A stretch of DNA of 64,000 nt from Bacteroidales bacterium. Lineage in GTDB: Bacteria > Bacteroidota > Bacteroidia > Bacteroidales > VadinHA17. The translations under genes and the position numbers were made by a program. This document shows positions 11,527-28,023 of this stretch, piece by piece; within the stretch, counting starts at the first letter, position 1, and each line of letters opens with the position of its first letter. The notes beneath the pieces were generated by a model, which was not told where the DNA came from, did no database searches, and worked only from the letters and a program-made list of their open reading frames with translations. Where the stretch lies: contig JAIVHO010000031.1 in assembly GCA_020201035.1 (NCBI GenBank), positions 230,122 to 294,121 on the forward strand, in the 5' to 3' direction.

Positions 11527-12657
11527 ATGAGACAGAAAGTACTTGTTATGGGATGTGGCCTGGTAGGCTCAGCCATAGTAAAGGACCTCGCCCCTGAATA
11601 CAGGGTAACAGCAGCAGATATATCTGGCGAAAATCTCGGAATGATAAATTCAATCGCCGGAGTTGAGGTTGTTACTGCAGATCTGTCAGATGCAGCCACC
11701 GTTAATAAGCTGGCAGCGGATCATGACCTTGTAATTGGTGCCCTCCCGGGGTTTATGGGATACAACTCGGTAAAGCACGTTATTGCAGCAGGCAAAAATA
11801 TGGTAGATATATCCTTTTTCCCGGAGGATCCGTTCGGACTGGACCGACTGGCAAAATCAAAAGGAGTAACTGTGGTTACGGATTGCGGTGTGGCACCGGG
11901 TATGGGAAATATTATTCTGGGTTATCACCATCCCAGAATGAACGTTCAGAAGTTTACCTGTATGGTGGGCGGCCTGCCGTTTAAAAGAGAGTGGCCATGG
12001 CAGTATAAGGCTGTCTTTTCACCGGCTGATGTGATAGAGGAGTACACCAGACCTGCCCGCTATATCATCAATGGCGAAATGGTGATCAGGGAGGCTCTCT
12101 CTGAGCCTGAATATGTGGAGTTTGAAAAGGTCGGTACCCTTGAAGCATGGAATTCAGACGGACTAAGGAGTCTGATTCAAACCATGCCTGTACCCAACAT
12201 GATTGAAAAAACCCTCAGATATCCCGGAACCATCGATTACCTTAGAATGCTTCGTGAGACAGGTTTCTTCAGTAACGACGAAATAGAGGTGAAGGGCGTC
12301 AGGATCAAACCAATCGATCTCACCTCGCAACTGGTCTTCCCGAAATGGAAACTTAAGGAAGGAGAAGAGGATTTCACAGTAATGAGGATTGTGGTGGAGG
12401 GTATAAATGCGGGAGTAAAGGAGAGATATACCTATAACCTTTTTGACCGATTCGACAGGGATAACGGGATAACCAGTATGGCCCGTACCACTGGATATAC
12501 CTGCACTGCCGTGGCAAACCTGATGCTTGAAGGAAGATTCAGCAGACCCGGTATCAATCCGGCCGAATATACCGGCACAGAAGATGGTAACCTTACCTTT
12601 ATACTGGAATACCTGAAAGAGAGGAATGTAATCTACAGTATGGAAAAAATCAGCTGA
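11527..12657 (+). CDS. Saccharopine dehydrogenase / lysine 6-dehydrogenase-like oxidoreductase
   Basis: 376 residues. The Rossmann dinucleotide motif is at the very N-terminus (VLVMGCGLVGSAIVKDLA). It is followed by VTADLSD, DLVIGALPGFMGYNSVK and the conserved TDCGVAPGMGNIILG. The family oxidises or reduces the C-N bond of saccharopine, lysine or related amino acids with NAD(P). The exact substrate cannot be read from the sequence. It starts 15 bp after hydE and is probably cotranscribed. Its last 8 bp overlap the convergent TM1266-like gene. A link to hydrogenase maturation is not established. Confidence 0.78.
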   Translation: MRQKVLVMGCGLVGSAIVKDLAPEYRVTAADISGENLGMINSIAGVEVVTADLSDAATVNKLAADHDLVIGALPGFMGYNSVKHVIAAGKNMVDISFFPEDPFGLDRLAKSKGVTVVTDCGVAPGMGNIILGYHHPRMNVQKFTCMVGGLPFKREWPWQYKAVFSPADVIEEYTRPARYIINGEMVIREALSEPEYVEFEKVGTLEAWNSDGLRSLIQTMPVPNMIEKTLRYPGTIDYLRMLRETGFFSNDEIEVKGVRIKPIDLTSQLVFPKWKLKEGEEDFTVMRIVVEGINAGVKERYTYNLFDRFDRDNGITSMARTTGYTCTAVANLMLEGRFSRPGINPAEYTGTEDGNLTFILEYLKERNVIYSMEKIS

Positions 12658-13180
12658 AAGAGACTGCTGAAACAGTAATATCTCCTGATTCAGATAACCG
12701 CTTAAGCAGATTCATCTGTTCCTGCGTATCACCTGTAAGTTCAAGAACAATTATTCCAATATCGCGGCCGTTGACCCTCTCGTTCAGCCCCAGCCGAGTT
12801 CTTATTGAGCAGCCATATCTTGAAAGGATATCCTGCATCTCCGTAACCACCGTCTCCCGGTTATCAATTAACAGTGTTGCAATGGTCCGGTTAGCAATGA
12901 TCCCAGGCAGTATGTCGGTTCCTACCGAAGAACCAGTCGGGGTAACGTGACGCACCTCCAGCCCGCGGATAGTTTCAAGGCTGTCGAGCAGACTCCTGTA
13001 TCCATTATCCTCATCCCGCAGCAAAAGAACCATATAGGCCTCACGGCTGCATGTTTCTGAACTGAGTTCATGAAAACCAAGCCTTGCACGTATTGCTCCG
13101 GCGTGAGCGGTCAGAGCTTTCTGTGTATTTCCGGCCTCCTTTATCCTGTCTGTTATTCTGAGTGCAACAATTCTGATCAT
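12650..13180 (-). CDS. Tandem TM1266-type (iron-only hydrogenase system) regulator with two ACT-like domains
   Basis: 176 residues. The second half (from IATLLIDNRETVVTEMQDIL) matches the TM1266 'iron-only hydrogenase system regulator' pattern with RTRLGLNERVNGRDIGII and a closing VSAVSF. Family members are normally about 80-90 residues. The first half repeats the scheme (IVALRITDRI, RARLGFHEL, MVLLLRDED, LEVRHVTP), so this is an internal duplication of an ACT/NikR-C-like fold. The ligand and mode of action are unknown. It lies directly downstream of hydG on the same strand, separated by repeat copy 1. Confidence 0.72.
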   Translation of the reverse strand: MIRIVALRITDRIKEAGNTQKALTAHAGAIRARLGFHELSSETCSREAYMVLLLRDEDNGYRSLLDSLETIRGLEVRHVTPTGSSVGTDILPGIIANRTIATLLIDNRETVVTEMQDILSRYGCSIRTRLGLNERVNGRDIGIIVLELTGDTQEQMNLLKRLSESGDITVSAVSFS

Positions 13181-13196: not shown

Positions 13197-13310
13197 TAAA
13201 TGGTATTATACCCCAGGGCAAGCCCTGGACCCTTCTTTCCGGGGCAAGCCCCGGGGAATTTAACCACACCCTCTCGTCCGCCGAAGCGGAACGCGAAGGT
13301 GGATTAAAAA
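13197..13310 (+). repeat. Interspersed structured repeat, copy 1
   Basis: Runs from TAAATGGTATTATA to GGTGGATTAAAAA. It contains three hairpins: CCAGGGCAAGCCCTGG (13213-13228), CCGGGGCAAGCCCCGG (13239-13254) and TCCGCCGAAGCGGA (13277-13290). The right end overlaps the last codons of hydG and supplies its stop codon (13304-13306). It is one of five copies in the window, all in this orientation. Confidence 0.9.
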
Positions 13311-14728
13311 TAGAGATCCCTCTCACCGTTCCTTATTCGCTGCAGCCTATCCTTCAGATCACCAACAATCTTCTCATCAATGGTTGCCAGATTTCTTTCG
13401 ATAGCCTTCCACCCCTTCTCTGCCAGCTCGGGCCCGGCATAATCCTCAATATATTCGGCAAGGGTTAATGCAGCATTTGGTGAGCAGTACCTCTTTATAA
13501 ATCCCGGAACTGAAAACTCCATAAAGTGTTCACCCGTTCTTCCCAACCGGTAACACGCAGTACAGAAAGAGGGAAGAAAGTCATCGTCCAGGAGCTCATC
13601 AATTACTTCGGCCAGACTCCTTTCATCACTTATCCTGAACTGCTCCCTGTTAAGATTCTGATCATTGTTTTTGATATCAGAGTAGGATCCCAGCTCAATC
13701 TTTGTACCGCCATCAATCTGTGAAACGCCATACTGAATAACCTCCCTGCGCACATCATGATCTTCGCGTGCAGTAAGTATCAGTCCGGTATATGGCACTG
13801 CAAGCCTAAGTATGGCAACAAGCTTCTTAAAATCATCATCACTCACCTGATACCTGTCATCCAGATCAAGTGCAGCAGCATCCTTTATTCTTGGGAAGGA
13901 GATGGTGTGGGGACCAACGTTGTAGCATGCCTCAAGGTGGTTGGTGTGTCTTACCAGACCCAGCACCTCAAAACGCCAGTCGTAAAGTCCAAACAACACC
14001 CCTATTCCAACATCATCTATTCCGGCCTCCTGAGCACGATCAAGTCCGGTCAGCCGCCATTCATAATCAGCCTTCTTTCCGCTCAGATGATACCATTTAT
14101 ATGCTTCCGGATGATATGTCTCCTGAAATATCTGATAGGTGCCAATACCTGATTTACCAACCGTTCTGAAACCCTCAATATCAAGAGGGGCTGCATTAAT
14201 ATTTACCCTTCTTATTTCACCATTACCTTTTTTTACGCTGTAGACCGTTCTGGCCGTATGCGCAATAAATTCCGGAGAATAGTCACGGTGTTCACCGTAA
14301 ACAAGGATTAATCTCTTCTGACCATTATCCTCAAGGGCCGCCACCTCCCTGACTATCTCTTCATCGCTGAGTGTCATTCGCTGAGCCTCTGTGTTACCCG
14401 ACCTGAAACCGCAGTAACTGCAGTTGTTACTGCAGTAATTTCCTACGTAGAGAGGAGCAAACAGAACTATCCTGTTACCGTAAACACGCTTTTTCAGTTC
14501 GCGCGCACCTTCTTTAATCTCTTCTATCAGTTCAGGGTCGGAAGCATTTACAAGCACAGCAGTCTCTTCGAGAGTTAGCCTCTGCTTATCCAGAGACTTT
14601 GCTATGACACTACGAACCTTCTCCCTGTCTGAAGTGGTATTGTTTATAATGTTCCATATTTCATCGGGATCAATAAAGGGCTTCATCCTTTCATCCCTGA
14701 TTGACAACTTTTCGGGTGTAAACTTCAT
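13304..14728 (-). CDS. hydG: [FeFe] hydrogenase H-cluster maturation radical SAM enzyme HydG
   Basis: 474 residues. The radical-SAM CxxxCxxC is at C99/C103/C106 (YCSNNCSYCGFRSGN). The C-terminal cluster motif CxxC-x22-C begins CTACYRLGRTGEHFMEF and ends RYC, and is diagnostic of HydG. The enzyme cleaves tyrosine to give the CO and CN- ligands delivered as an Fe-Cys synthon. A reverse TAnnTTTG box (CAAAAATA, 14838-14845) about 110 bp upstream is a possible promoter. The stop codon lies inside interspersed repeat copy 1, so the extreme C-terminus may have been altered by the repeat. Confidence 0.94.
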   Translation of the reverse strand: MKFTPEKLSIRDERMKPFIDPDEIWNIINNTTSDREKVRSVIAKSLDKQRLTLEETAVLVNASDPELIEEIKEGARELKKRVYGNRIVLFAPLYVGNYCSNNCSYCGFRSGNTEAQRMTLSDEEIVREVAALEDNGQKRLILVYGEHRDYSPEFIAHTARTVYSVKKGNGEIRRVNINAAPLDIEGFRTVGKSGIGTYQIFQETYHPEAYKWYHLSGKKADYEWRLTGLDRAQEAGIDDVGIGVLFGLYDWRFEVLGLVRHTNHLEACYNVGPHTISFPRIKDAAALDLDDRYQVSDDDFKKLVAILRLAVPYTGLILTAREDHDVRREVIQYGVSQIDGGTKIELGSYSDIKNNDQNLNREQFRISDERSLAEVIDELLDDDFLPSFCTACYRLGRTGEHFMEFSVPGFIKRYCSPNAALTLAEYIEDYAGPELAEKGWKAIERNLATIDEKIVGDLKDRLQRIRNGERDLYF

Positions 14729-15036: not shown

Positions 15037-15963
15037 TTAATAAATAAGATCCTCCACCTCCCGCACAACCGACTCAATAAAACGTGGATCATCCTGAAAG
15101 ATACTGCTTTTAAAGGGAGCACTCATCCGGCGGTGGAAATTAATCCTGACTGTCCCAACCTGCAGGGAGTGAATATCCTTGCCCTCAAAAAGACTCAGAA
15201 AGAGATGGCTGCTTCCAGCCATATCGCTGGTTATCAGAGATATTCCCCTGTGCTCTAATTTGTCTGTAATAACTGTAACTGCATATGCTCCCGCCGGGGG
15301 CAAAAGTTTATCTTCTTCATCCGTGGCTACCAGAGCAAAACTGGTATCACCTGATAACAGTGGTGGCACAGGCTCTATATCTGCAATTACCATATAATAG
15401 TGATCAAGGTAAGCGTTAACTCTCTGTATAAAGCCCTCCCTCAGCGATCTTCTTATTTCGGTTGAACTGACAGTCTCATTCTGCACCTCCTGCTCAGGTA
15501 TCATCTCTGTAATAAACCCCAGCCTTTCAGCCATTCCCTCAAGGGAAGAGAAATCTCCCTCCTTGTTATGACCGAAGAAATGATTGAATCCAACCACAAT
15601 TACCCTTGCATGAAGCAGGCCAACCAGATACTTCTCAACGAAGCAGGCAGAAGAGATATCTGCAAACTGCCTGTTAAATTCTATAATAATCAGATTATCC
15701 AGACCCGACTCCCGCAACAGTTCTATTTTTTCCTTCTGGGTATTAATCAGACTTAGACCCTTCCCAACAGTTTCCGGATAGAGAACCTTACGCGGATGCG
15801 GGTGAAAGGTTATAAGAACTGACTCTCCGTTATATCTGTGTGCCAGCTGCTTCAGCCGGTTCAAAATCACTTTATGCCCAAAATGAACCCCGTCAAAGGT
15901 TCCGGTTGTTACCACAGGGTTAACTATTTTATCACACCCCTCAAATCCCCTGAATATTCTCAT
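15037..15963 (-). CDS. RibF-like FAD synthetase with degenerate riboflavin-kinase domain
   Basis: From the ATG at 15963 (MRIFRGFEG) the product is 308 residues. The next upstream ATG (16011) would overlap rex and is less likely. The N-terminal nucleotidyltransferase has TTGTFDGVHFGHKVIL, TFHPHPRKVL and VVGFNHFFGHNKEGD, and ends in SSTEIRRSLREG. The C-terminal part keeps the general shape of a flavokinase (PPAGAYAV, SLFEGKDIHSLQV) but lacks the GxGxGRxLGxPTAN motif. It may therefore make FAD from FMN only. It is the last gene of the Rex/HydABC-like operon, 10 bp after rex, consistent with flavin supply to HydB. Confidence 0.78.
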   Translation of the reverse strand: MRIFRGFEGCDKIVNPVVTTGTFDGVHFGHKVILNRLKQLAHRYNGESVLITFHPHPRKVLYPETVGKGLSLINTQKEKIELLRESGLDNLIIIEFNRQFADISSACFVEKYLVGLLHARVIVVGFNHFFGHNKEGDFSSLEGMAERLGFITEMIPEQEVQNETVSSTEIRRSLREGFIQRVNAYLDHYYMVIADIEPVPPLLSGDTSFALVATDEEDKLLPPAGAYAVTVITDKLEHRGISLITSDMAGSSHLFLSLFEGKDIHSLQVGTVRINFHRRMSAPFKSSIFQDDPRFIESVVREVEDLIY

Positions 15964-15973
15964 CACCCTGCTG

Positions 15974-16627
15974 CTATCTTGCTTCTTTAACAAAATAGGC
16001 AACCTTTTCAAGAAAGGTAATCATATCAAACTCTTCCAGATATACATTTGGCGGCATATTGAGTGCAACCGTGGTAAAGTTCAAAAAACCCTTAAGGCCG
16101 TAACGTATCCCCTCCTCGGCAACTGCCCTTGCACTTTCAGGAGGAACGGTAAGGATGGCAATTGAAATATTCTCACTCCGTATTATCTCTTCCATCTTCT
16201 CAACGGGGTGACATCTGACACCCGCAATTACCCTGTTAATCTTCTGAGGATCATTATCAAAAGCTGCCACAATATTCAGCTTTGATCGTTTTCCCTTGAA
16301 ATAGGCGGTAACTGCTCTTCCAAGATTACCAAGGCCTATTACTGCTACATTCTGCCCCTGTTCAGAATCTATTATTTCACCAATAGTTCTGATAAGCTCC
16401 TTTACATCATATCCTTTTTTCAGAACGCTTGAATAACCTATAAGCATAAGGTCACGACGCACCTGTACCGCTGTAATGTGGAGCAATCCGGCGAGCTCAT
16501 GTGAATAGATGTAGTTATTACCCTCATCCAGATATTTGAGAAGTGTACGCCTGTATTCGCTAAGCCTCTCAACTGTTTTACCGGGGAGTTTATCCATGGT
16601 GAGTTTTTTTAAGTTTCTGGTTATCAT
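15974..16627 (-). CDS. rex: Redox-sensing transcriptional repressor Rex
   Basis: 217 residues. An N-terminal winged helix (ERLSEYRRTLLKYL, HITAVQVRRDLMLIGY) precedes a Rossmann NAD(H)-binding domain with VAVIGLGNLGRAV and AAFDNDPQKI, and a C-terminal swap helix with EFDMITFLEKVAYF. Rex senses the NADH/NAD+ ratio and represses fermentation and hydrogenase genes when NADH is low. The start at 16627 overlaps the upstream kinase stop as ATGA; MDKLPGKT at 16597 is an alternative. It sits in the operon it probably controls, and a matching dyad lies upstream of hydC (24250-24265). Confidence 0.93.
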   Translation of the reverse strand: MITRNLKKLTMDKLPGKTVERLSEYRRTLLKYLDEGNNYIYSHELAGLLHITAVQVRRDLMLIGYSSVLKKGYDVKELIRTIGEIIDSEQGQNVAVIGLGNLGRAVTAYFKGKRSKLNIVAAFDNDPQKINRVIAGVRCHPVEKMEEIIRSENISIAILTVPPESARAVAEEGIRYGLKGFLNFTTVALNMPPNVYLEEFDMITFLEKVAYFVKEAR

Positions 16628-17748
16628 AATTTCAGGGGAAGTCTTACTGTAAAAACAGAACCTTCACCCGGACTGCTTTTTACATCTATGCTTCCCTTAT
16701 ACAATTCTACAACTTTTTTTACAATTGAGAGACCCAATCCGCTACCCAAAATATTTTTAGTCTGTTCATTCCGTATTCTTACAAACTCATTAAACAGCAT
16801 TCCTATCTCCTCCTTGCTCATTCCTATGCCTGTATCTGACACGGTGATTACAGCACTTCTTTCATCAGAATCCATAACAATATCCACCCTGCCCCCGTCC
16901 CGGTTATATTTTACAGCATTTGACAGCAGATTATTGCATATCATTTCAAGATCATCAGGATCAGCCATCATGGTTACCTCCTTTCTGACCTCCTTATGCA
17001 GCTCCACATCTCTCTGTATTGCATAGGGTTGTACTGTTCCCAGTGCATTTTCACACACTGCTCCAAGCTGTACCTCCCGTACTTTATCTTCCCGTATCTC
17101 GAATCGTATCCTGGTAAAGTCGAGCAGGTCAAGTATCAGGTTACGCATGCCCTGAATTCGTTTGACCGATCTCTCAATCATGGGCATATAATTGTCTATG
17201 CTCTCCCCCTCTCCCTTTTCAAGCATGATCTTAAGATATCCCTCAATCGCATTAAGGGGCGATTTCAGTTCATGGGAGAGAACTGAGAGAAACTGGTATC
17301 TTATCTTTTTCCCCTCCTGCTTCATCCGGGATGTAATACGCCTGAGGTATAATTGTTTGGAGATATTCTCAATGGAGGATTTCAGCTCTTGTGGTGTAAA
17401 TGGTTTGGGTATAAAATCGGATGCTCCGTTTCTGGTTGCCCGAACGGCAACATCAAGAGAAGCGTAGGAGGTAATCATGGCAACTACCATATCATAGTTT
17501 CTGTTCCTCACATATTCAAGCACCTCCACACCCTGTATTCCGGGCAGTTTATTATCAAGGAGCAGGATGTCGGGCATCCACTCTTCAATTACTTCTATTC
17601 CCTCCTCTCCTGAAGCCACTTCACGCAACAGATAAGTAAAATCATCATCCATAAAGGGATAGGAGACCCTGAAGTTCCGGAGTATCCGTGAAACTCCTGA
17701 TCGTATTCCGGGCTCATCATCCACCACAAGTATTTTTAGTTCAGCCAT
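16624..17748 (-). CDS. Receiver-histidine kinase hybrid (REC-HisKA-HATPase)
   Basis: 374 residues. An N-terminal receiver domain (KILVVDDEPGIRSG, phospho-Asp in DILLLDNKLPG, KPFTPQEL) is followed by a dimerisation/phospho-acceptor domain (SVLSHELKSPLNAIEGYL) and a HATPase_c domain (NLLSNAVKYN, VSDTGIGM, GSGLGLSIV). There is no membrane segment, so it is cytoplasmic and would take input through its receiver. It overlaps the upstream response regulator by 8 bp and rex by 4 bp, so the genes are translationally coupled. The receiver first, kinase second layout suggests a relay from the HydS/kinase. Confidence 0.9.
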   Translation of the reverse strand: MAELKILVVDDEPGIRSGVSRILRNFRVSYPFMDDDFTYLLREVASGEEGIEVIEEWMPDILLLDNKLPGIQGVEVLEYVRNRNYDMVVAMITSYASLDVAVRATRNGASDFIPKPFTPQELKSSIENISKQLYLRRITSRMKQEGKKIRYQFLSVLSHELKSPLNAIEGYLKIMLEKGEGESIDNYMPMIERSVKRIQGMRNLILDLLDFTRIRFEIREDKVREVQLGAVCENALGTVQPYAIQRDVELHKEVRKEVTMMADPDDLEMICNNLLSNAVKYNRDGGRVDIVMDSDERSAVITVSDTGIGMSKEEIGMLFNEFVRIRNEQTKNILGSGLGLSIVKKVVELYKGSIDVKSSPGEGSVFTVRLPLKL

Positions 17749-18148
17749 CCTGAAACTTTAAAAGTTTAACAATTGCTGCATCCAGCTGTTCGGCTCCGGG
17801 ACCTTTTTCCAGATAAAGGTCAGCCCTTATCCACTCTCTCTCACGACTGCTGTCAAGTCCGAATGACATACCAGTCTCACGGGTTACTGCAGTTGAGAGG
17901 ATGACCGGAACATCAGGATACAATCTCCTTATTTTATAGCATAGTATGAACCCGCTGTCCTCATTCTCCATCATCAGGTCAAATACGGCTATATCCGGTT
18001 TAATCTTCTCAAGAACCTTCTCGGCCTCAAACTGACCGGTAGCCCGTATCACCTCATATCCTGCCTTCTCCAGTCCATGAGCTATCTGAAACAGGTAATC
18101 AGGATCATCATCTGCAATCAGTACCCTTATCTTATTCTTTTCTGTCAT
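17741..18148 (-). CDS. Stand-alone response regulator (receiver only)
   Basis: 135 residues made of one receiver domain: acidic pocket VLIADDDPDYLF, phospho-Asp in DIAVFDLMMEND, and conserved Thr/Ser and Lys positions later (STAVTRETG, LEKGPGAEQ). There is no DNA-binding output domain. It lies between the HydS/kinase gene (65 bp upstream) and the receiver-kinase (8-bp overlap), so it probably shuttles phosphate between them. Confidence 0.87.
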   Translation of the reverse strand: MTEKNKIRVLIADDDPDYLFQIAHGLEKAGYEVIRATGQFEAEKVLEKIKPDIAVFDLMMENEDSGFILCYKIRRLYPDVPVILSTAVTRETGMSFGLDSSREREWIRADLYLEKGPGAEQLDAAIVKLLKFQDG

Positions 18149-18213: not shown

Positions 18214-19548
18214 TCAGGTTTGCCCGGCCTGTCTGGGGAGGGTAATCCTGAATAGTGTACCACGTTCCTTAGTTTCATTCCCTGTCTCTGACTCAACCAC
18301 TATCTTTCCACGGTGCATCTTTACAATGCCATATGCTGTTGCAAGCCCCAGACCGGTCCCTTTACCTGTCGATTTGGTGGTAAAAAAGGGCTCAAAAATT
18401 TTAGGCAGGTGTTCAGCAGGTATTCCGGGACCATTATCTGACACCTCAATAATAACGTTATCCTTTTCACCATCCCTGTCACCATCCAGTTTCAGTCTCA
18501 CAACACCCTCTTCTCCAAGGGCATCCACACTGTTCTTTATAAGGTTTGAAACAACCTGTGTCATCTGTTCCATATCGGCCATCACCTCGGGATCCTTCAG
18601 GTTGTCAACAAACTCTATCGATATTCCTGAAGGTATAATAACCGACTCTATACTTTTTCTGACCAGCTGACGCAGATCAATAAAGTCATGACTTACCTGG
18701 TTTTTCCTCGAAAAATTGAGAAGACCTGCCACTATTGACTTACATCTTCCTGCCTGTTCAGCAATTAACTGCAAATCACCCCTCAGGGGATCGTTCTTCT
18801 CACACTCCTCAAGCAGTATATTGCTGTACATTATAACAACCCCGAGCGGATTGTTGAGTTCATGGGCAATGCCGGCAGAGAGCTGGCCCATATGTGCCAG
18901 TTTTTCAGACTGTTTAAGTGCCTGCCGCATCGTTGAAAGTTTCTCATTGGAGAGCGCCAGGTCCTTCACTGAGTCATGCAGCTTTTCAATGGTATGAGGC
19001 AGGCACATCTCAACCTCGGCCAGCCCCTTGGTGATGGCAACAGCATGATCAATGCAACTCTCATAGCCGCAGGCGCCGCAATTGAGATGATCTGATTCAA
19101 CGTACTTTCCCATCTCCCTGAGCACCCTTTCAACCTCTGCCTCCTCCGGGGTCAGCAACCTTCTGTCGTCAGGAGTAAATGAGGCCGAAAGGTTGGTGTT
19201 GCTGAATTTCCTGATCCATTGCTTCCAGCTGCTGATGTCAATACTCTTCAGCTTCTCACGGGCATAGCTGCTGACATGTGCGCGCCTGTTGTAATACTTA
19301 CCCTGCTCTGACATTCCAGGGCCCATAATACAACCCTTACAACAGAGCAGTTCAAGATGCTGATCACTAATCAGACCAGCTTCAAACTCCTTTATCGCCT
19401 CCTGGAAGAGAATTCTACCTTCTGCTGCCAGAATATTACCATCAACGGCATCATCATTTATTCCTGCAGTCTGCAACAAGCCCCTTGCCACAGGAAAGAT
19501 TTCTGGCCATTGCAACCATTGGAGAGACAAGGGGTGCCAGATTATCAA
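18214..19548 (-). CDS. HydS-type sensor, C-terminal fragment: H-domain end, 4Fe-4S (Fes) domain, histidine kinase
   Basis: 444 codons are open, but the first about 18 residues are an out-of-frame reading of the upstream fragment. Homology resumes at FPVARGLLQTAGI. Seen in order are the H-domain motif-3 equivalent LLCCKGCIMGPGM, the spacer FTPDDRRL, a Fes/4Fe-4S domain (CGACGYESCIDHA), a coiled coil, HisKA (AGIAHELNNPLGVV) and HATPase_c (NLIKNSVDAL, GTGLGLATAYG). The frame-intact paralogue at 24930-26795 shows that about 70 codons, including the motif-2 cysteine, are missing between this and the next fragment. It may be a pseudogene, a split gene or a frameshifted product. A real in-frame start is not evident. 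Confidence 0.75.
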   Translation of the reverse strand: MIIWHPLSLQWLQWPEIFPVARGLLQTAGINDDAVDGNILAAEGRILFQEAIKEFEAGLISDQHLELLCCKGCIMGPGMSEQGKYYNRRAHVSSYAREKLKSIDISSWKQWIRKFSNTNLSASFTPDDRRLLTPEEAEVERVLREMGKYVESDHLNCGACGYESCIDHAVAITKGLAEVEMCLPHTIEKLHDSVKDLALSNEKLSTMRQALKQSEKLAHMGQLSAGIAHELNNPLGVVIMYSNILLEECEKNDPLRGDLQLIAEQAGRCKSIVAGLLNFSRKNQVSHDFIDLRQLVRKSIESVIIPSGISIEFVDNLKDPEVMADMEQMTQVVSNLIKNSVDALGEEGVVRLKLDGDRDGEKDNVIIEVSDNGPGIPAEHLPKIFEPFFTTKSTGKGTGLGLATAYGIVKMHRGKIVVESETGNETKERGTLFRITLPRQAGQT

Positions 19549-20017
19549 TCAGGTTGGGATGGTAATATTTGATATAGTTTACTATGGATGGACAATCTGA
19601 TGAAATATAGTATTGTGTTTTACGAATATCAACCAGTTCTTTGTATGCATCTGCCACCAGGTCTGCTCCAAAAGCCACCTCATAAACAGATGAAAACCCC
19701 AGGGCCCTTACCATCCCGGTAAACTGACCGGAATCCATATCATAAAACTCCGCTGGAAAACTGGGAGCTATCATTGCTGCAACCTTTCCTCCTTTAAGCA
19801 GTTCCTCCACCCTGTCGCCGGTTTTCAGGTATACTTTTGCTCCCTGGCTGCATACCCTTGTACAGTTGCCACATCCGATACACCTGTCGCTCATCACCTC
19901 TGCCTGACCATTCTCTATCCTTATGGCCTTGGCCGGACACTCCCTCACACAGGTATAACAGGTTCTGCATAGCTCCCGCCGGGTATAAACAAGTTCTGTC
20001 AGAATATCTCCTCCCAT
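19454..20017 (-). CDS. HydS-type sensor, N-terminal fragment: 2x[4Fe-4S] and start of H-domain
   Basis: The ATG at 20017 overlaps the hydA stop as TGATG, so translation is coupled. The roughly 187-residue product has two ferredoxin motifs (CRTCYTCVRECP and CIGCGNCTRVCS), then the start of a group C/D [FeFe]-hydrogenase domain with ISSDCPSIVNYIKYYHP and NLAPLVSPMVAMAR. After MAR the frame differs from its paralogue and stops within 10 codons. The other reading frame then carries the rest of the protein. The relay-cysteine position of motif 1 is Asp. Confidence 0.75.
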   Translation of the reverse strand: MGGDILTELVYTRRELCRTCYTCVRECPAKAIRIENGQAEVMSDRCIGCGNCTRVCSQGAKVYLKTGDRVEELLKGGKVAAMIAPSFPAEFYDMDSGQFTGMVRALGFSSVYEVAFGADLVADAYKELVDIRKTQYYISSDCPSIVNYIKYYHPNLIDNLAPLVSPMVAMARNLSCGKGLVADCRNK

Positions 20018-21750
20018 CACATCAGTACATCACGTTCAATATATTCTCTTCCGGCTATATCTGTATAACCGCTATTTCCATTATCATCTCTCTTATCCTG
20101 GATAAGGGTAAGCAATTTCTTTGTTTCGGGGTTCCTTGAAGGAAGAGGCATTGAATGGTTCTCCTCGCCTCTCACTATCTGCCTGTATCTCTCCCTGGGA
20201 CCGTCAGCACCCGCTCCGAATCCGAGTCCTCCACCATTTACACAACCGCCTCTGCATACGACAACCTCAACAAAGTCAAATTTACGGCCTGCGTCCATAC
20301 CCTCCTTCAGGCGATCAAAAGAGGTTAATCCATCGACCACTGCAAAAAGGTAATCCCTTTTTGAGGTACTGAATGATATCTCACGGTATAAACCCGGTGT
20401 GCGAAACCTTTTTATGTCCTGGGAAGTTAATCCCGGACCTCCCTCTGTCTCTGACAGAATTCTGGCGACCCCTTCGGCCACGCCGCCTGAAATTTCTGCC
20501 AAATCTGCCGTAAAGCTCCTGAGGGACAGCGGTTCGTCAGCAAAGCCCGATCCACTGGCTGCAAGGTCAATTCCATACAACTTGAGCAATCTGACAAGTT
20601 CCCTTACCGTCAGCACAGAATCAACGCCTGGCTGCGCTCCCTGGATAAGATTGTCTCTTCTGGCATCAAATTTTGCTGCCAGGCATGGTGAAACACTTAC
20701 CCTTCTTACTTTTACTTCCTCCCTACCCGCCTCTTCTCCCTGAATAAGCGGTATCAGTGTTCCTGTTATTAACTGCGGGGTTTTCAGTTTTGATATATCT
20801 TTCAGAAGGTTATGACCCGACTGCTCCGCATGCTTTATCCAGGAAGGACAATGGGATGAATAAATTGGTGTATCCCTGCCGTTCTCCCTCCCTGTCGCCA
20901 GCTCTTCAGCCAGCAGCGATAGCATAATATCTGTTCCGGAGCCTGTTGAATAGATTCTGTGAAAACCTATATTCCTGAGTGCACTGTTGAGCTGCCTTTC
21001 AAAAAGAGCGGTAAATCTTAACCCCATCTCCTCTGCCACTCCATATGCTGCAAGAGGGGAATAGAACAATGCAGTGAGGGTCTTCTCATCTGCAAGATAG
21101 TCCTCCACCTCTGAGATCGAGCTTTTCTCATGCAGTGCACTGGTAGGACACACCTTAACACACTGTCCGCAAAAAAGGCAATTTGAAAGATTAAGATCAT
21201 AATCCATTGCCACCCCGATATGGGTATTCTCGCCGCGTGAAAGAAAATCAAAAGTTCCTGCTCCCACCTCCTCTTCACAAACTCTTACACATCTGCCACA
21301 TACAATGCATTTTACCGGTTCCCTGGTTATTGCCTCTCCTGAGAGATCACCCTTGCGGCCCTGCTTCTGATAGTTACCCTGTTGTTTTTCACGAAGATTG
21401 AGTTCATAGGCAAGGTTCTGCAGTTCACATGCCAGGTTACGGTCACACGACAGGCAGTCGTGTGGATGACTTGAAAGCAGTAGTTCAACTATTGTACGCC
21501 TTGCCTCCACAACCCTGGAAGAGTGTGTTTTAATCTTCATCCATTCAGATACCGGCTGTGAGCAGGCAGTTACCAGTGAGGGTGATCCCTCCACCTCCAC
21601 CACACATATCCTGCATGCACCTGTAGGCGTTAAGCCGGGCAGTCTGCAGAATGTTGGAATATCAATACCGTTACTGTTAAGGGCAGAGAGAATGGTCTCA
21701 CCCTTTTCAGCCTTTATCCTTCTGCCGTTTACTTCAATAATTACATGCAT
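20017..21750 (-). CDS. HydA-like [FeFe]-hydrogenase subunit with non-canonical active-site residues
   Basis: 577 residues with the HydA layout of trimeric bifurcating hydrogenases. It has an N-terminal [2Fe-2S] domain (C35, C46, C49, C63), a His-ligated [4Fe-4S] site (H95, C99, C102, C108), two [4Fe-4S] motifs (CIVCGRCVRVC, CLFCGQCVKVCP), then an H-domain. The four cysteines that hold the H-cluster cubane are present (C301, C356, C499, C503). Motif 1 reads SSHCPSW rather than TSCCPxW, so the proton-relay cysteine is His300. Motif 2 is SPCLAAKFD (Met to Ser354), motif 3 is VVCRGGC (Met to Val497), and the Glu pair of the usual IMEE stretch reads LSLL. It follows hydB by 2 bp. Activity cannot be assumed. 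Confidence 0.85.
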   Translation of the reverse strand: MHVIIEVNGRRIKAEKGETILSALNSNGIDIPTFCRLPGLTPTGACRICVVEVEGSPSLVTACSQPVSEWMKIKTHSSRVVEARRTIVELLLSSHPHDCLSCDRNLACELQNLAYELNLREKQQGNYQKQGRKGDLSGEAITREPVKCIVCGRCVRVCEEEVGAGTFDFLSRGENTHIGVAMDYDLNLSNCLFCGQCVKVCPTSALHEKSSISEVEDYLADEKTLTALFYSPLAAYGVAEEMGLRFTALFERQLNSALRNIGFHRIYSTGSGTDIMLSLLAEELATGRENGRDTPIYSSHCPSWIKHAEQSGHNLLKDISKLKTPQLITGTLIPLIQGEEAGREEVKVRRVSVSPCLAAKFDARRDNLIQGAQPGVDSVLTVRELVRLLKLYGIDLAASGSGFADEPLSLRSFTADLAEISGGVAEGVARILSETEGGPGLTSQDIKRFRTPGLYREISFSTSKRDYLFAVVDGLTSFDRLKEGMDAGRKFDFVEVVVCRGGCVNGGGLGFGAGADGPRERYRQIVRGEENHSMPLPSRNPETKKLLTLIQDKRDDNGNSGYTDIAGREYIERDVLM

Positions 21751-21752
21751 GA

Positions 21753-23705
21753 TTATCTAACAATTACTGCCCCGAATTTACAAACCTCAAAACAGAGCCC
21801 GCATCCGGCACATCTCTCCTCCACAATAAAGTGAGGCTGCAGCCTGGTACCATATATGGCTCCTGCCGGACATCTCACGGCACACAGGGTACATCCTGTA
21901 CACTTTTCAACATCGATAGAAAAAATCCTCAGTCCCCTGCAGTGACCGGTTCTGCAGATACGGTCAAATATATGCTCCTCAAGCTCCGCCCTGAATCCGG
22001 TCATAAGATCAAGCAGCAGGTTGGGCGCATTTTGTCCCAATCCGCATAACGACGTCTCCTTCATAACCCTTGCAATTGTCTCAAGCTGCATTACACCCCT
22101 GAACCTTGAAAGAGCACTCTCGCCTTCCGCTTCCGAGGGCCTTGAGGTAACTGAATTCATAATATAATGCAATCTGCCGGTACCCTCACGGCATGGAATA
22201 CACTTACCACAGCTCTGGTCTTTTAAAAATGCAAGAGAATACCTTACCAGATCAACCAGGCAGGTAGCTTCACCCAAAAGCACCACTCCTCCTGAGCCGA
22301 GTGAAACGGATTGATTGGCCGCTTCATCAAAATCAATCTTTAATCCTGTTGCTGCAGGAGGAAGGATATGGCCGGCCGGACCGCCAAGCAGCACTCCCTT
22401 CAGTTCATCTCCTCCCACAACACCGTCACAGACATTATTTATCAGATAGTCTATGCTTTTGCCCATCTCCACCTCAACCAGTCCTTTGAGCCTGGCATCT
22501 CCCGTAACATAAAACAGTTTTGTCCCTGGACATCCTTCACTGCCTGTTCCCCGGTAATGATCAGGACCATCCCTCATAATAACCGGAATGTTAGCGAGTG
22601 TTTCAGGATTATTTATTATTGTGGGAAACCCCTTGTATCCGTTGGTGGCAGGATAGGGCGGCTTCAGCTGTGGCATGCCTCTTTTCCCCTCCAGACTGCT
22701 GATCAAGGCAGTCTCTTCGCCACATACAAATGCACCGGGATTAATCCGTAGCTCTATATTAAAACTGAATCCGCTGTCAAAAATATCATATCCCAGGAGT
22801 CCGGTCGCACGTGCCGCCTCTATAGCCTCTGATACAACCCTTACGGCATAATCAGACCTGTTATGTATTGCTATTATCCCCTGGCCGGCACCCGTTGCAT
22901 ATCCGGCAATTGCCATTCCTTCAATAACAGAGTGGGGCTGAGTCTCAAGCAGCAGTGTATCGGTTGAACTTCCCGGATCACTCTCCATCGCATTGCACAC
23001 TATATACCTGGTAGCTGAATCGGTGGCAAGTGCATTTTTCCACTTTTCTGCTGTGAAATATCCCGATCCGCTCCTGCCCCTGAGCTGCGCAGCTTCTACG
23101 GTACTTACAACCTCTTCCATTGTAAAATTACGGATCGTCCTTACCAGACTTGTATATCCACCACGTGCAATGTAACCTGCTGCATCAGATGGATTATAAC
23201 AATTAAAATTATTCAGTACCTGCCTTCTCTGAGAAACAATCCATTTAATGTCATCTACCCAGACAATACCCGGCCAGGCCTCAAAACCCCTGTTCCCCTG
23301 TTGTCCTATAAGGTCACTCTCAGGTATATCATTATGGAAAACACCATTAATGACACCATCTATTTTTTCCGGCGTTACATTCCTGAATATCAATCTGTTT
23401 CTGCCAGGCATCTGTACAGACACCATGGGAATATAGTTTAAAGGCCCCTGATAGCCGGCAGCCACAAGATCGGCCTCAATATCATGATCGTCCATAAACT
23501 CCCTGACTGCCCGCCAGGTATCCATTGCCCCTGCAAGTATGGCACCACCGGAGAATCCAACCCTGATAACAGGCCTCACAACCTTGTCGCCACGCAACAT
23601 GGCAAGCCTTACCCTATCTTCAGAGGCGGGTCCGGTTTCGTGAGCCGAAAGAAGTATCCTCTTTAGAAAAGAGATCTCATTTTCAAGCCGAGCAGACTTA
23701 TTCAT
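21753..23705 (-). CDS. HydB/NuoF-like flavoprotein subunit with altered FMN loops
   Basis: 650 residues with the HydB layout: N-terminal thioredoxin-like domain (about 40-115), NuoF FMN/NAD(H) core (about 140-440), [4Fe-4S] site CGKCIPCREGTG (C499, C502, C505, plus the later SLCGLG), and two C-terminal [4Fe-4S] motifs (CTGCTLCAVRCP, CAGCGLCFEVCK). The usual thioredoxin-like [2Fe-2S] cysteines are absent (VGFSGGAILAG, AGYQGPLNYIP). FMN motifs differ from consensus: RGRSGSGYF for RGRGGxGFP, NAMESDPG for N(A/G)DEGDPG, and IIAIHNRSDY for YIYxRxEYP. GAFVCGEETALISSLEGKRG is intact. It overlaps hydC by 8 bp. Confidence 0.85.
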   Translation of the reverse strand: MNKSARLENEISFLKRILLSAHETGPASEDRVRLAMLRGDKVVRPVIRVGFSGGAILAGAMDTWRAVREFMDDHDIEADLVAAGYQGPLNYIPMVSVQMPGRNRLIFRNVTPEKIDGVINGVFHNDIPESDLIGQQGNRGFEAWPGIVWVDDIKWIVSQRRQVLNNFNCYNPSDAAGYIARGGYTSLVRTIRNFTMEEVVSTVEAAQLRGRSGSGYFTAEKWKNALATDSATRYIVCNAMESDPGSSTDTLLLETQPHSVIEGMAIAGYATGAGQGIIAIHNRSDYAVRVVSEAIEAARATGLLGYDIFDSGFSFNIELRINPGAFVCGEETALISSLEGKRGMPQLKPPYPATNGYKGFPTIINNPETLANIPVIMRDGPDHYRGTGSEGCPGTKLFYVTGDARLKGLVEVEMGKSIDYLINNVCDGVVGGDELKGVLLGGPAGHILPPAATGLKIDFDEAANQSVSLGSGGVVLLGEATCLVDLVRYSLAFLKDQSCGKCIPCREGTGRLHYIMNSVTSRPSEAEGESALSRFRGVMQLETIARVMKETSLCGLGQNAPNLLLDLMTGFRAELEEHIFDRICRTGHCRGLRIFSIDVEKCTGCTLCAVRCPAGAIYGTRLQPHFIVEERCAGCGLCFEVCKFGAVIVR

Positions 23706-24168
23706 TTTTTATCCCCTTGATAAATTTTCTGATCCCGGCCACAGGATCATCTCCATCTTCAAACAACACAGGTTCTCCATTATAAAGAACAACGGGGCCC
23801 TTCTGACAGGCACCACGACACCCTGTAAGATCAAGACTCCACTGCGAATCAGTGCTTACACCACCGGGTAATACACCCGTCTCATCTTCAATCATACGGG
23901 TGATCATCTCCGATCCTCTCATCCAGCATGTTGCCCCGCAGCATACAACAAAATGGTTACTGCCCCTCCTCCTGAACCTGAATTCATCATAGAACGTGGC
24001 AAGGGAGTATATCCTGGCAGTACTGATGCCCAGATATTCTCCTGTCACTGCAACAGCCTCCTCGTCAATAAAGCCCCTCTCCTCCTGTATCTTCATAAGG
24101 ATTGGAATCAGATGCTCCCTTGATGCTCCGGTGTATTGTCTGAATATATTTGACAGATAGTTTTCCAT
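23698..24168 (-). CDS. HydC/NuoE-like [2Fe-2S] subunit
   Basis: 156 residues from the ATG at 24168 (MENYLSNIFRQ). The frame opens further upstream at a TTG at 24213, but that codon lies under the probable -7 promoter box (24211-24218), so the ATG is preferred. The NuoE fold is seen in IPILMKIQEERGFI and IYSLATFYDEF. The [2Fe-2S] ligands are CCGATC (Cx4C) and CRGAC (Cx3C). It is the first gene of the operon and would carry electrons to HydB. Unlike HydA and HydB its cofactor motifs look normal. Confidence 0.88.
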   Translation of the reverse strand: MENYLSNIFRQYTGASREHLIPILMKIQEERGFIDEEAVAVTGEYLGISTARIYSLATFYDEFRFRRRGSNHFVVCCGATCWMRGSEMITRMIEDETGVLPGGVSTDSQWSLDLTGCRGACQKGPVVLYNGEPVLFEDGDDPVAGIRKFIKGIKNE

Positions 24169-24210
24169 TCCCTCTGAATAACTAAAAACCTGTTTAAAAC
24201 GTGATTTGCA

Positions 24211-24218
24211 CAAATATA
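24211..24218 (-). promoter_or_regulatory. Probable -7 box of the hydCBA operon
   Basis: CAAATATA on the plus strand reads TATATTTG on the minus strand, a full match to TAnnTTTG. It is 43 bp upstream of the hydC ATG. No clean TTTG -33 box lies at the expected distance. Confidence 0.5.
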
Positions 24219-24552: not shown

Positions 24553-24810
24553 GTGACTTTGTCAAAAACATATAACATAACGATTTGCATGGGAAGTTCC
24601 TGTTTCTCAAGGGGCAATAAAGAGATACTTGAGAAAATAAGAGAATTTATAACAAGGCATCACCTTACCGACAGGGTTATTCTACGGGGATCACATTGTC
24701 TGGGAAACTGCAGTAAAGGTCCATCGATGATTGTTGATGACAGGCTTATCTCTCCTCTCTCAATAGTCACAATTGACTCAATTCTGGAGAAAGAGCTGAA
24801 AACCGGATAA
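24553..24810 (+). CDS. Thioredoxin-like [2Fe-2S] ferredoxin
   Basis: 85 residues from a GTG start at 24553; a TTG two codons later is an alternative. The [2Fe-2S] pattern is CMGSSC (Cx4C) and CLGNC (Cx3C), as in the thioredoxin-like ferredoxins related to NuoE. Such small ferredoxins often accompany HydS-type sensors in hydrogenase clusters. It is the first gene of the divergent plus-strand operon. Its TAA stop coincides with the first bases of repeat copy 3, so the repeat may define its C-terminus. Confidence 0.82.
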   Translation: MTLSKTYNITICMGSSCFSRGNKEILEKIREFITRHHLTDRVILRGSHCLGNCSKGPSMIVDDRLISPLSIVTIDSILEKELKTG

Positions 24811-24929: not shown

Positions 24930-26795
24930 ATGTCAAATAATGATCCGGTAATATTTATCAATAACAAGAAGTGTAACAACTCATATTCCTGCGTCAGGGT
25001 TTGCCCTGTCAAAGCGATAGAAGTAACTCCGGGAAGGGAGCATCCTGTGATACTGCCCAACAGATGCATAGGGTGCGGACTATGTTTTATTGCATGTGCA
25101 ACAGGAGCAGTTGAGTACAGAAATTCAACAGGATCAGTTAAGTCAGCACTTGAATCTGACACTCGTACAGTGGCCCTGGTGGCTCCCAGTATTGCATCAG
25201 AATTTGATGATATAACGGATTACCGCAAGCTGGTTGCAATGATCAGGTCACTCGGTTTTGATTATGTACATGAAGTATCCTTTGCCGTTGATATAGTTGC
25301 ATCGGCCTACCGGCAGCTGTTCGAAGAGAGTGGGGGCAAATATTATATTACTTCAAACTGCCCTTCAATAGTAAAGATGGTAAGGAAGTATTACCCTGAG
25401 ATGGTCCCAAATCTTGCCCCGGTTGTCTCTCCGGCAATTGCGGCCGGAATAATGGTAAAGAAAATCTACGGGGAGGAGATAAAAAGCGTCTTCATTGGCC
25501 CCTGTATTGATGCAAAGGATGAGATACTCTCTCACCCCGGGAAACCAGTTGACGAGGTACTTACATTCCTTGAACTTCGTGAACTTTTCAGCCTGCAATC
25601 GGTACAGGAAAAAAATGTTTCATTCTCTGACTTTGACCCGCCACACGGCAACTGGGGCGCACTTTACCCCATTCCCGCCGGCATATTGCATGCTGCAGGT
25701 ATTAAACGCGATCTGATGGAGAGTGGAATTATCACAGCATCAGGAAGGGAGGAGTCAATAGAGGCACTTAACGACTTTAATAAACACATTGATACAATCA
25801 GGCACCACTTTAATCTCTTTATTTGCCACGGCTGTCTGCTCGGACCCGGAATGGAACACCATAATGAAAGATTCAGAAGGCGTGACCTCGTAAGAAAATA
25901 TTCTGCAAAAAGGGTAAATACGCTGGATAAGGAGGAATGGACCGGGGCAATGAACAAATGGTCAGAGCTGGATCTTTCCGCATCATTCACTCCTGACGAC
26001 CGGCGACTTCCGGAACCACCTGAAGAGGCTATAGATGAGGTGCTTAAAATAATCGGCAAGGAGAATGACAGCAATGATGGCGACTGCCGTGCATGCGGAT
26101 ATGAATCGTGTCGCGACTTCGCCGTAACTGTTGCCCAGGGACTTACAATACCAGAGATGTGCCATAAATTCAATATTCGAAACAAGGAGGATTATATTGA
26201 GAAGCTGCGTAAGACAAACAAAAAACTGGCTGAAACAAGAAAGGCACTGATGGAATCGGAGAAAACAGCCCTGCGCGAAAGCGAAACGGCCCTGGAAGCT
26301 TCTGAAACTCTCAGCTCAATGATAGAAAAGCTTCCGTCAGGAGTAGTGATTGTTGATAATCACCTTAAGGTGGTGCATTCAAACAGTGCATTTATAACGC
26401 TGCTTGGAGAGGATGCCACATCTGTGGCTGAGGTTATCCCGGGACTTATGGGAGCAGATATTAAGTCTCTCCTTCCTTTTAATATATACAATATGTTCAG
26501 CTATTCACTGAAACAGGATGAACCTGTAGTAAGCCGGGATATAAGCCTGGGAGACAGGATGCTGAATGTTTCAGTTTTCCCTATCACACCCAAAAAAATT
26601 GCAGGAGCTATCCTGAGGGATATCTACTCTCCCGAAGTGCATGGAGAAGAGGTAATCACCAGAATCACGGATGTTATTGACAAAAATCTGGCGATGGTGC
26701 AAAAAATAGGTTTTCTGCTGGGAGAAGGGGCCTCTGAGACAGAGAAGATGCTCAACTCGATCCTTGAATCGTATAAAAAAGTAAAAAGAGATTGA
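24930..26795 (+). CDS. HydS-type sensory [FeFe]-hydrogenase-like protein with Fes and PAS domains
   Basis: 621 residues. Domains in order: two [4Fe-4S] motifs (second is CIGCGLCFIAC), an H-domain with TSNCPSIV (N143, C144), GPCIDAKDE (C192) and ICHGCLLGPGM (C299, C302), a Fes domain (CRACGYESC, then C411), a coiled coil (about 420-470) and a PAS domain (about 470-570). The proton-relay cysteine is Asn143, as expected for non-catalytic group C/D sensory proteins. There is no kinase domain. It is followed by a SpoIIE phosphatase, its likely output partner. It is the intact paralogue of the broken gene at 18214-20017. Confidence 0.88.
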   Translation: MSNNDPVIFINNKKCNNSYSCVRVCPVKAIEVTPGREHPVILPNRCIGCGLCFIACATGAVEYRNSTGSVKSALESDTRTVALVAPSIASEFDDITDYRKLVAMIRSLGFDYVHEVSFAVDIVASAYRQLFEESGGKYYITSNCPSIVKMVRKYYPEMVPNLAPVVSPAIAAGIMVKKIYGEEIKSVFIGPCIDAKDEILSHPGKPVDEVLTFLELRELFSLQSVQEKNVSFSDFDPPHGNWGALYPIPAGILHAAGIKRDLMESGIITASGREESIEALNDFNKHIDTIRHHFNLFICHGCLLGPGMEHHNERFRRRDLVRKYSAKRVNTLDKEEWTGAMNKWSELDLSASFTPDDRRLPEPPEEAIDEVLKIIGKENDSNDGDCRACGYESCRDFAVTVAQGLTIPEMCHKFNIRNKEDYIEKLRKTNKKLAETRKALMESEKTALRESETALEASETLSSMIEKLPSGVVIVDNHLKVVHSNSAFITLLGEDATSVAEVIPGLMGADIKSLLPFNIYNMFSYSLKQDEPVVSRDISLGDRMLNVSVFPITPKKIAGAILRDIYSPEVHGEEVITRITDVIDKNLAMVQKIGFLLGEGASETEKMLNSILESYKKVKRD

Positions 26796-26841: not shown

Positions 26842-28023
26842 TTGAGAAACGAATTTCATACAGAAGTTGACTGCCGGCAGAAAAATCATCATGATTCAAG
26901 AATCTGCGGCGATGTCTTTCTCTCCAGAATGATAAAGGAGGAGAAGAGGATTATTGCTGTACTTTCCGATGGCATGGGTCACGGTGTTAAAGCCAATATT
27001 CTGGCCACCCTCAGCTCAACCATGGCACTTAACTTCACAATTGAGCATAAGGAGATTGAGCGCATTGCAGAGATAATTATGAATACCCTGCCGGTCTGTG
27101 CTGAAAGAAAGATAAGCTATGCCACCTTCTCCATCATTGACATTGATTCACAGGGATTTACCAGAATACTTGAATATGATAATCCCTTAGCCATAATCTT
27201 CAGGGGCCCTGCTGTTTTTACTCCACGCTGGGAGAAAGTAATGCTTAAAGGAGAAAACCACAGCGGTAAAATTCTGAATACCTGCAGTTTTACCGCAACC
27301 CTTGAAGACCGGATAGTGATTATGAGTGATGGAATAGTACAGAGCGGAATGGGCAGTGAAAAACACCCCTTTGGCTGGGGCAGGGAGAATGTTGAGAGTT
27401 ACGCCCTTTCTCTGATTGCCGGTGATCCTACTATTTCAGCCACCGCACTCTCCTCAAAAATCCTCAATATGGCTCATAAGAATGATGGGTACCAGCTAAA
27501 GGATGATGCCAGCTGCGCTACCGTTTATTTCAGGGAACCCAGGAAACTGCTTATATGTACAGGACCTCCTTTTGACAGTGAAAAAGACAGGGTGCTCGCC
27601 GGTATTGTTGAAAATTTCATTGGCAGGGTAATCCTGAGCGGTGGCACAACAGCCGACATAATTGCAAGGGAACTTGAGAGAAAAATCAATGACAACCTGG
27701 AATTTACCGATCCGGAGTTACCACCCGAAAGCTTTATGGAGGGAATAGAACTGGTAACTGAAGGGATACTTACACTCCAGAAAGTAAGCAGGATTATTGA
27801 TATTTACCCGAATCATACTCCCGGAAAGGGCCCTGCCGACAAAATTGTGAAACTGATAATGGACTCTGATGAGATATCCTTTATAATAGGAACCCGCATC
27901 AATGAAGCCCATCAGGACCCTACCCTGCCGGTAGATCTGGAGATAAGAAGGAATGTGGTGCGCAGGATAGCCGCCATGCTGGAAGAGAAATGGCTTAAAC
28001 AGGTTGATCTGGAGTATATCTGA
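26842..28023 (+). CDS. SpoIIE-family PP2C-type serine phosphatase
   Basis: 393 residues from a TTG start at 26842 (LRNEFHTEVDCRQ read with Met). The PP2C/SpoIIE domain has the metal-binding aspartates in ICGDVFLS, VLSDGMGHGVKAN and IVIMSDGIVQSG, and DDASCATVYF near residue 230. A further about 150 residues follow with no clear family. It is 46 bp after the HydS/PAS gene. Together they form the common sensory pair in which the H-domain protein controls a phosphatase. The target, perhaps an anti-sigma antagonist, is not in the window. Confidence 0.85.
   Translation: MRNEFHTEVDCRQKNHHDSRICGDVFLSRMIKEEKRIIAVLSDGMGHGVKANILATLSSTMALNFTIEHKEIERIAEIIMNTLPVCAERKISYATFSIIDIDSQGFTRILEYDNPLAIIFRGPAVFTPRWEKVMLKGENHSGKILNTCSFTATLEDRIVIMSDGIVQSGMGSEKHPFGWGRENVESYALSLIAGDPTISATALSSKILNMAHKNDGYQLKDDASCATVYFREPRKLLICTGPPFDSEKDRVLAGIVENFIGRVILSGGTTADIIARELERKINDNLEFTDPELPPESFMEGIELVTEGILTLQKVSRIIDIYPNHTPGKGPADKIVKLIMDSDEISFIIGTRINEAHQDPTLPVDLEIRRNVVRRIAAMLEEKWLKQVDLEYI

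Follow-up and report, generated by a model that had tools for sequence, protein, structure and literature searches.

The HydABC complex encoded in the window (the whole 64,000-nucleotide stretch analysed here, from a Bacteroidales bacterium of the family VadinHA17) belongs to a set of homologues, termed group 2 below, for which we hold with middling confidence that a canonical trimeric [FeFe]-hydrogenase of the A3/Bfu type has been re-purposed: no longer an NAD(H)-coupled, bifurcating H2 enzyme, it would serve as a flavin and Fe–S redox relay or sensor whose output goes to the HydS1 kinase. Sequence comparison indicates purifying selection on the ligands all along the electron path, from the ferredoxin domain at the HydB C terminus, the HydC [2Fe-2S] cluster and the FMN contacts via B1 to the H-cluster cubane; in group 2 only, the loops on the NAD side, B5 and the surroundings of the [2Fe] subsite have apparently been lost repeatedly. 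The relay reading is also supported by a conserved gene order, low dN/dS, a separate canonical HydABC in the same genomes and sensory motifs in HydS1.

The 650-aa open reading frame lying exactly at 21753–23705 (minus strand) encodes a HydB/NuoF-family subunit with a degenerate Trx-like N-terminal domain, a Nuo51 FMN domain, a B1 [4Fe-4S] cluster site, a His/Cys site (Zn or B2) and a 2x[4Fe-4S] C-terminal domain. Pfam recognised the Nuo51 FMN domain, NADH_4Fe-4S and the 2x[4Fe-4S] domain, and the nearest solved chains are HydB/NfnB/HoxF-type subunits (7p5h_B, E 8e-133). An AlphaFold model built from 17 sequences, of the window and its relatives (pLDDT 84, pTM 0.84), superposes on NfnABC-B (Z 48.3, 580 residues) and on T. 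maritima HydB (7p92_B; Z 46.0, 600 residues), the latter being the comparison recommended in the original prediction, and the fold match spans residues 7–650, in keeping with the domain make-up of the HydB/BfuB family. Homology to solved chains and fold thus bear out the earlier naming of the protein as a HydB-like subunit.

The unusual motifs that had been read in this protein were found as described and at the same coordinates (all on the minus strand): the FMN/NAD glycine loop is RGRSGSGYF (residues 209–217, 23055–23081; canonical RGRGG[AG]GFP), with Ser212 as the fourth residue of RGRGG; NAMES (residues 238–242, 22980–22994) replaces NADEG, with Met240 at the Asp position, where family orthologues carry Lys or Arg; and IIAIHNRSDY (residues 277–286, 22848–22877) stands where the canonical sequence is [YF]IYIRAEYP. 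The Ser of NAMES is not odd in itself, because Aquifex complex I has Ser (S96) at the matching position (PMC6560083); the odd change is that from D to M. For the same reason the G-to-S change in NADES, universal in group 2 apart from one Ala, is no marker of loss by itself. The missing ligand cysteines of the Trx-like domain (23331–23573, minus strand; placed by alignment and predicted fold) were confirmed, the three B5 positions being G54, Y85 and L89 (0/3 Cys), and the domain nevertheless keeps a confident predicted fold in the AlphaFold model. The [4Fe-4S] motifs and GEETALI, described earlier as intact, are so: the four B1 cysteines, the His and Cys of the metal site, all eight cysteines of the C-terminal B3/B4 domain (21765–21917, minus strand) and CGEETALI are present. 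K221, N238 and E241 correspond to K177, N194 and E197, which bind FMN in A. mobile HydB (PMC8880783). The loop motifs AFM and GGPSG, which distinguish bifurcating enzymes (PMC8880783), read SST and GGPAG here.

At the other end of the complex, the 577-aa HydA-like subunit (20017–21750, minus strand) retains all [2Fe-2S] and [4Fe-4S] ligands and has an altered H-cluster pocket, as the original prediction had also noted. Its L1 motif is SSHCPSW (20839–20859; canonical TSCCPxW), with C299 changed to His and the cubane ligand C300 kept; L2 is SPCLAAKFD (20665–20691; canonical MPCxAKKxE), with M353 to Ser, K358 to Ala and ligand C355 kept; and L3, EVVVCRGGCVNGGG (20227–20268), reads EVVVCRGGC against canonical ExMxCxxGC, with M497 to Val and ligands C499 and C503 kept (all on the minus strand). 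The A3 H-cluster motif set is consequently incomplete, its ligands being kept and its pocket residues lost, and the protein scores 435 against the NF040763 cut-off of 765. The AlphaFold model of this subunit (pLDDT 73) bears out the H-domain fold, but it is weak around the N-terminal clusters and silent on cofactors. The chain is NuoG-like plus H-domain within a HydABC trimer, which differs from the single-chain architecture of group C sensors. The 171-aa HydC-like subunit (23698–24213, minus strand) keeps 4/4 [2Fe-2S] cysteines, as do all aligned HydC rows.

These features are shared by relatives. A HydB of this kind was found at E < 1e-200 in 70 of 117 family genomes searched (counted by hand), and all 30 family orthologues read have RGRS, lack RAEY and replace the NADE Asp by Lys, Arg or Met, which rules out chance or sequencing error in HydB. 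UBA5507 (L037) is partly intermediate at the HydB motifs. The same substitutions are absent from 24 HydB-like loci of other bacteria and from paralogues in the window's own genome, and so cannot be put down to random variation within the HydB family. Looked for in related NAD-dependent HydB proteins, where their presence would have told against the original prediction, they were absent as well: the canonical HydBs, also those encoded in the same genomes, have RGRGG, NADE and YIxRAEY. A strong match to canonical HydA occurs in all 70 family genomes with the altered HydB; in the ten genomes read, the canonical HydABC keeps TSCCPGW, MPCLAKKYE and NADEG, and mutual identity is 82% for canonical and 65% for altered HydA. 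Some canonical A3 HydA proteins, namely locus L084 (contig C61 of the window's own genome) and A. woodii HydA1 (7q4v), read TSCSP, with Ser aligned to the cubane ligand C300; this is the reverse of group 2, where the Cys at C300 is kept and C299 varies.

Across the order, the HydB subfamily was present in 131 of 393 sampled genomes (at least 540 bits; counted by hand), and the sequences read split into two sister groups (support 84 and 92) in a tree made by a quick method with trait columns removed and several open nodes. Group 1 (n=15) has the canonical residue at almost all sites, and its cluster contains no Rex, RibF-like, HydS3 or PP2C gene. Group 2 (n=47, window included) has Rex in 40/47 and PP2C in 39/47 loci, against 0/15 in group 1, and most of the group-2 loci lacking them lie at contig ends or are the window itself, which was unscored; the association (p ~2e-9) reflects one clade and one origin and does not count as independent evidence. 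In other classes of the phylum, the related HydBs are likewise canonical, so that the erosion is derived and, in this sample, confined to group 2. That any HydB can look like this is ruled out by the canonical same-genome paralogues, the group-1 sister clade and the HydBs elsewhere in the phylum. Some group-2 members, such as L116 and L123, look catalytically intact.

Residue counts over 47 group-2 HydB and 46 HydA sequences (28 of each from outside the window's family, 19 HydB and 18 HydA from inside) separate what is kept from what is lost. Kept in every sequence are the 16 N-terminal cluster ligands of HydA, its cubane cysteines C300, C355, C499 and C503, and, in HydB, the B1 cysteines, the His/Cys metal site and the eight C-terminal cysteines. 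The FMN contacts are nearly as constant (K221, N238 and E331 in 47/47, E241 in 46/47). On the NAD side of HydB, the NADE Asp is kept in 16/28 sequences outside the family, the fourth residue of RGRGG in 21/28 and the RAEY Glu in 14/28, and none of the three is kept in any of the 19 family sequences. The three B5 cysteines are kept in 16/28, 16/28 and 21/28 outside and in 0, 16 and 0 of 19 inside, so that no family HydB has more than one of the three. HydA C299, M353 and K358 are kept in 12/28, 14/28 and 14/28 outside the family and in 0/18 inside, K358 being replaced there by Met (15) or Ala (3). The adenine-stacking Phe180 is lost in the altered HydB, but the canonical sister group varies there as well (F in 9/15). 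Minimum numbers of changes on the tree (NADE Asp 6, C299 7, M353 7, K358 9, ligand C300 0) indicate repeated loss of the [2Fe]-pocket residues and the NADE Asp within group 2, where the B5 cysteines too were lost repeatedly; loss of K358 or C299 together with the NADE Asp in independent lineages gave 3–4 supported pairs only. In CpI structures, K358 lies on a CN ligand of the distal iron. A literature search returned no usable account of the structural role of the NADE Asp or of K358.

Could this still be an ordinary NAD(H)-dependent electron-bifurcating hydrogenase, with loops more tolerant than assumed? Early-branching group-2 members are nearly canonical in their motifs, the FMN contacts persist, the NuoF nicotinamide-loop acids E95, E97 and D103 (PMC6560083) have equivalents in HydB of the family clade, and three Bacteroidota are annotated as carrying BfuABC with two bfuT genes (PMC11406978). 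However, the NADE Asp and the fourth Gly of RGRGG, invariant in the canonical HydBs examined, are lost in all family members; B5 is lost, although every Bfu enzyme is said to conserve it (PMC9304861); and the Met of AFM, a motif marking bifurcating forms (PMC8880783), occurs in 0/19 family sequences. We consider this explanation hardly probable. It is extremely improbable that HydA is instead a cubane-only protein like eukaryotic Nar1/NARFL, with [4Fe-4S]H ligands and no [2Fe], working in cluster assembly or pure electron transfer: the four cubane cysteines are indeed invariant while the [2Fe] pocket erodes, but the gene context has no link to Fe–S assembly, the neighbours being hydrogenase sensors and maturases.

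The original prediction went further and suggested an electron partner other than NAD(H). The part of this concerning the substitutions stood, as they are derived, common to all family orthologues and accompanied by an eroded HydA pocket. Non-use of NAD(H) by the altered HydB is plausible from these changes but unproven, because the FMN contacts and the acidic nicotinamide-loop residues persist; for group-2 HydABC as a whole, NAD(H) use appears doubtful. A firmer result is that, inside a signalling locus, the complex is detuned at both ends and its Fe–S wire is invariant, which speaks for relay or sensing and not just for a different soluble carrier.

A hydrogenase that still works, though slowly, that takes electrons from ferredoxin or another one-electron carrier through HydC or the HydB C-terminal domain and that leaves NAD(H) unused, in line with the original prediction, is rather unlikely in our view, yet much is consistent with it. 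All Fe–S relays and [4Fe-4S]H ligands are intact, and hydE and hydG adjoin the cluster. Sensory [FeFe]-hydrogenases carry C299 to Ala and M353 to Ser/Thr/Gly changes, and TmHydS and TamHydS, with similar changes (C299A and M353G/S), still turn over H2, slowly (PMC10055695, PMC8163306), so that the altered residues are no proof of inactivity. The loss of K358, in the whole window family and half of the remaining sequences, goes further than the C299 and M353 changes, because the residues that hydrogen-bond the [2Fe] site are reported to be conserved in sensory enzymes (PMC10055695). Moreover, a canonical catalytic HydABC already exists in the same genomes.

The gene neighbourhood is that of a sensory system. 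The order is HydC, HydB, HydA, followed on the minus strand by the sensory hydrogenase/histidine kinase HydS1 (18214–20020), a response regulator receiver protein (17741–18148), a receiver-histidine kinase hybrid (16624–17748), a Rex-type NADH/NAD+-sensing repressor (15974–16627), a RibF-like protein with an FAD synthetase domain and no recognised flavokinase domain (15037–16011) and the H-cluster maturase HydG (13304–14728), with HydE and a TM1266-like regulator further down the cluster; Rex and the RibF-like gene are group-2 context genes. A divergent arm on the plus strand encodes a short Trx-like [2Fe-2S] ferredoxin (24553–24810), the hydrogenase-domain sensor-like protein HydS3, with its K358 position changed (24930–26795), and its partner, a SpoIIE/PP2C-type phosphatase (26842–28023). 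The same gene order is seen in family relatives and across many families of the order, and the HydC, HydB and HydA genes are all retained in nearly all cluster loci read. In relatives, HydS1 keeps the sensory H-cluster motifs SSDCPA, IGPCxAKKxE and LLCCxGC, including the K358 position. The Lys at that position is gone from HydS3 proper in most group-2 loci, the HydS3 row of our motif table being HydS1 in a few loci.

Several further observations concern these neighbours. The TM1266-like protein, a putative iron-only hydrogenase regulator encoded between HydE and HydG (12650–13180, minus strand), has an extra N-terminal half. The RibF-like flavokinase domain is also unrecognised in L071 and L077, and contig C29 of the window's own genome carries a further FAD synthetase gene. 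HydS3 of L117, L119 and L126 has lost most or all cubane cysteines (for example MSNDPVTV / ISPLIASKDE / LFYKE-F) and is still paired with PP2C, apparently as a hydrogenase-fold sensor without an H-cluster. In four loci (L122, L124, L131 and L140) a second, more canonical HydABC set shares one 20-kb stretch with the eroded set, and the eroded cluster may regulate it there.

Purifying selection on HydA and HydB appears to be strong: dN/dS for close family pairs, estimated by NG86 with dS partly near saturation, was 0.036–0.072 for HydA and 0.026–0.068 for HydB, like the neighbouring genes. A relic complex under relaxed selection and heading for loss would explain the patchy, repeated loss of catalytic residues, the acceleration of HydA and HydB in the window lineage and the damage to the adjacent HydS1. 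As an account of group 2 it is improbable, given dN/dS of 0.03–0.07, relay Fe–S ligands conserved at 100% in 47 lineages and three subunit genes kept in nearly all cluster loci read; low dN/dS and the invariant relay ligands rule out a pseudogene for the whole family. It may hold for the window's own lineage, in which lineage-specific changes in HydA and HydB are 1.4–2.2 times those of the sister lineage (for example 112 vs 58 sites); rates are near 1 for HydS3, PP2C, the receivers, the RibF-like protein and HydG, slightly raised for HydC and too noisy to judge for Rex. The SST for AFT, NNPET, AEKW and the loss of the last B5 Cys in the window may reflect such relaxed selection. HydS1, intact at about 650 aa in relatives, is split in the window into two open reading frames (19454–20020 and 18214–19548) by a deletion of about 65 codons and a frameshift near 19500, which is either a real deletion or an assembly fault in one lineage only. 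Its coincidence with the HydA and HydB acceleration is consistent with HydABC and HydS1 being a functional unit.

The relay or sensor reading begins with a canonical trimeric HydABC built into a sensory gene cluster. HydB would still bind FMN, NAD(H) would react poorly or not at all there, and H2 turnover at HydA would be slow or absent. Electrons at ferredoxin level could equilibrate with HydA by way of the C-terminal domain, HydC, FMN and B1; the resulting redox state, set by ferredoxin and possibly also by H2 at HydS1, would then reach the kinase of HydS1, both receiver proteins and perhaps the HydS3–phosphatase branch. The maturase genes hydE and hydG beside the cluster argue against this scheme, as do the remaining nicotinamide-loop acids and FMN contacts, the H2 turnover of TmHydS and TamHydS despite their similar C299/M353 changes, the single origin behind the context association and the intact-looking group-2 members. 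A stricter version is proposed tentatively: an order-wide pseudo-hydrogenase HydABC acting as a multi-cluster redox sensor, with no NAD(H) exchange or H2 turnover, wired to an intact H2-sensing kinase and an opposing hydrogenase-domain/PP2C branch.

Compared with the electron-bifurcating HydABC enzymes (A3, BfuABC) of T. maritima, A. woodii and T. kivui, the complex is alike in its three subunits, domain order, fold, relay ligands and FMN contacts, whereas the window's family has altered glycine, NADE and RAEY motifs, no B5, no AFM and no HydA C299, M353 or K358, and its NAD side is not bifurcation-like. NuoF/Nqo1 of complex I, FdsB, HoxF and NfnABC-B share the Nuo51 FMN fold, a B1-type cluster and the E95/E97/D103 equivalents, but keep the NADE Asp and RGRGG in the alignments read, both of which are missing from the window family. 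TmHydS and TamHydS (putative sensory groups C/D), for which a low-turnover sensing role has been proposed, resemble group 2 in their C299/M353 substitutions and kept cubane ligands; they differ in being single chains, often with PAS/kinase output, that keep the [2Fe] H-bonding residues, whereas here the changes lie in a HydABC trimer and extend to loss of K358. The closest described loci are sub-type V BfuABC with BfuT, a group C3 sensor, in Hydrogenedentota/Calditrichota, together with three Bacteroidota whose second bfuT gene lies upstream of bfuC and whose implications were called unclear (PMC11406978). The window-type loci are most likely of the same kind, two-bfuT Bacteroidota included: bfuCBA is followed by a kinase-type BfuT downstream of bfuA there, and HydS1 lies directly downstream of HydA in the loci read here. 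The same source treats these loci as bifurcating hydrogenases, and in the parts consulted we found no description of active-site erosion in the two-sensor group or of its Rex/RibF-like/PP2C context; nor did our literature search return a description of active-site erosion in such BfuABC loci.

In databases and surveys, loci of this type pass for electron-bifurcating hydrogenases, from which H2 metabolism is then inferred. If the group is non-catalytic or sensory, predictions of H2 cycling drawn from this locus would be wrong for many anaerobes of the Bacteroidales type. Canonical group 1, early group 2 and the eroded family form a natural series in which the NAD end, B5 and the [2Fe] end are removed and the relay stays. 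With this series one can test directly which parts of HydABC bifurcation, H-cluster assembly and signalling each require, and how electrons are supplied to sensory hydrogenases.
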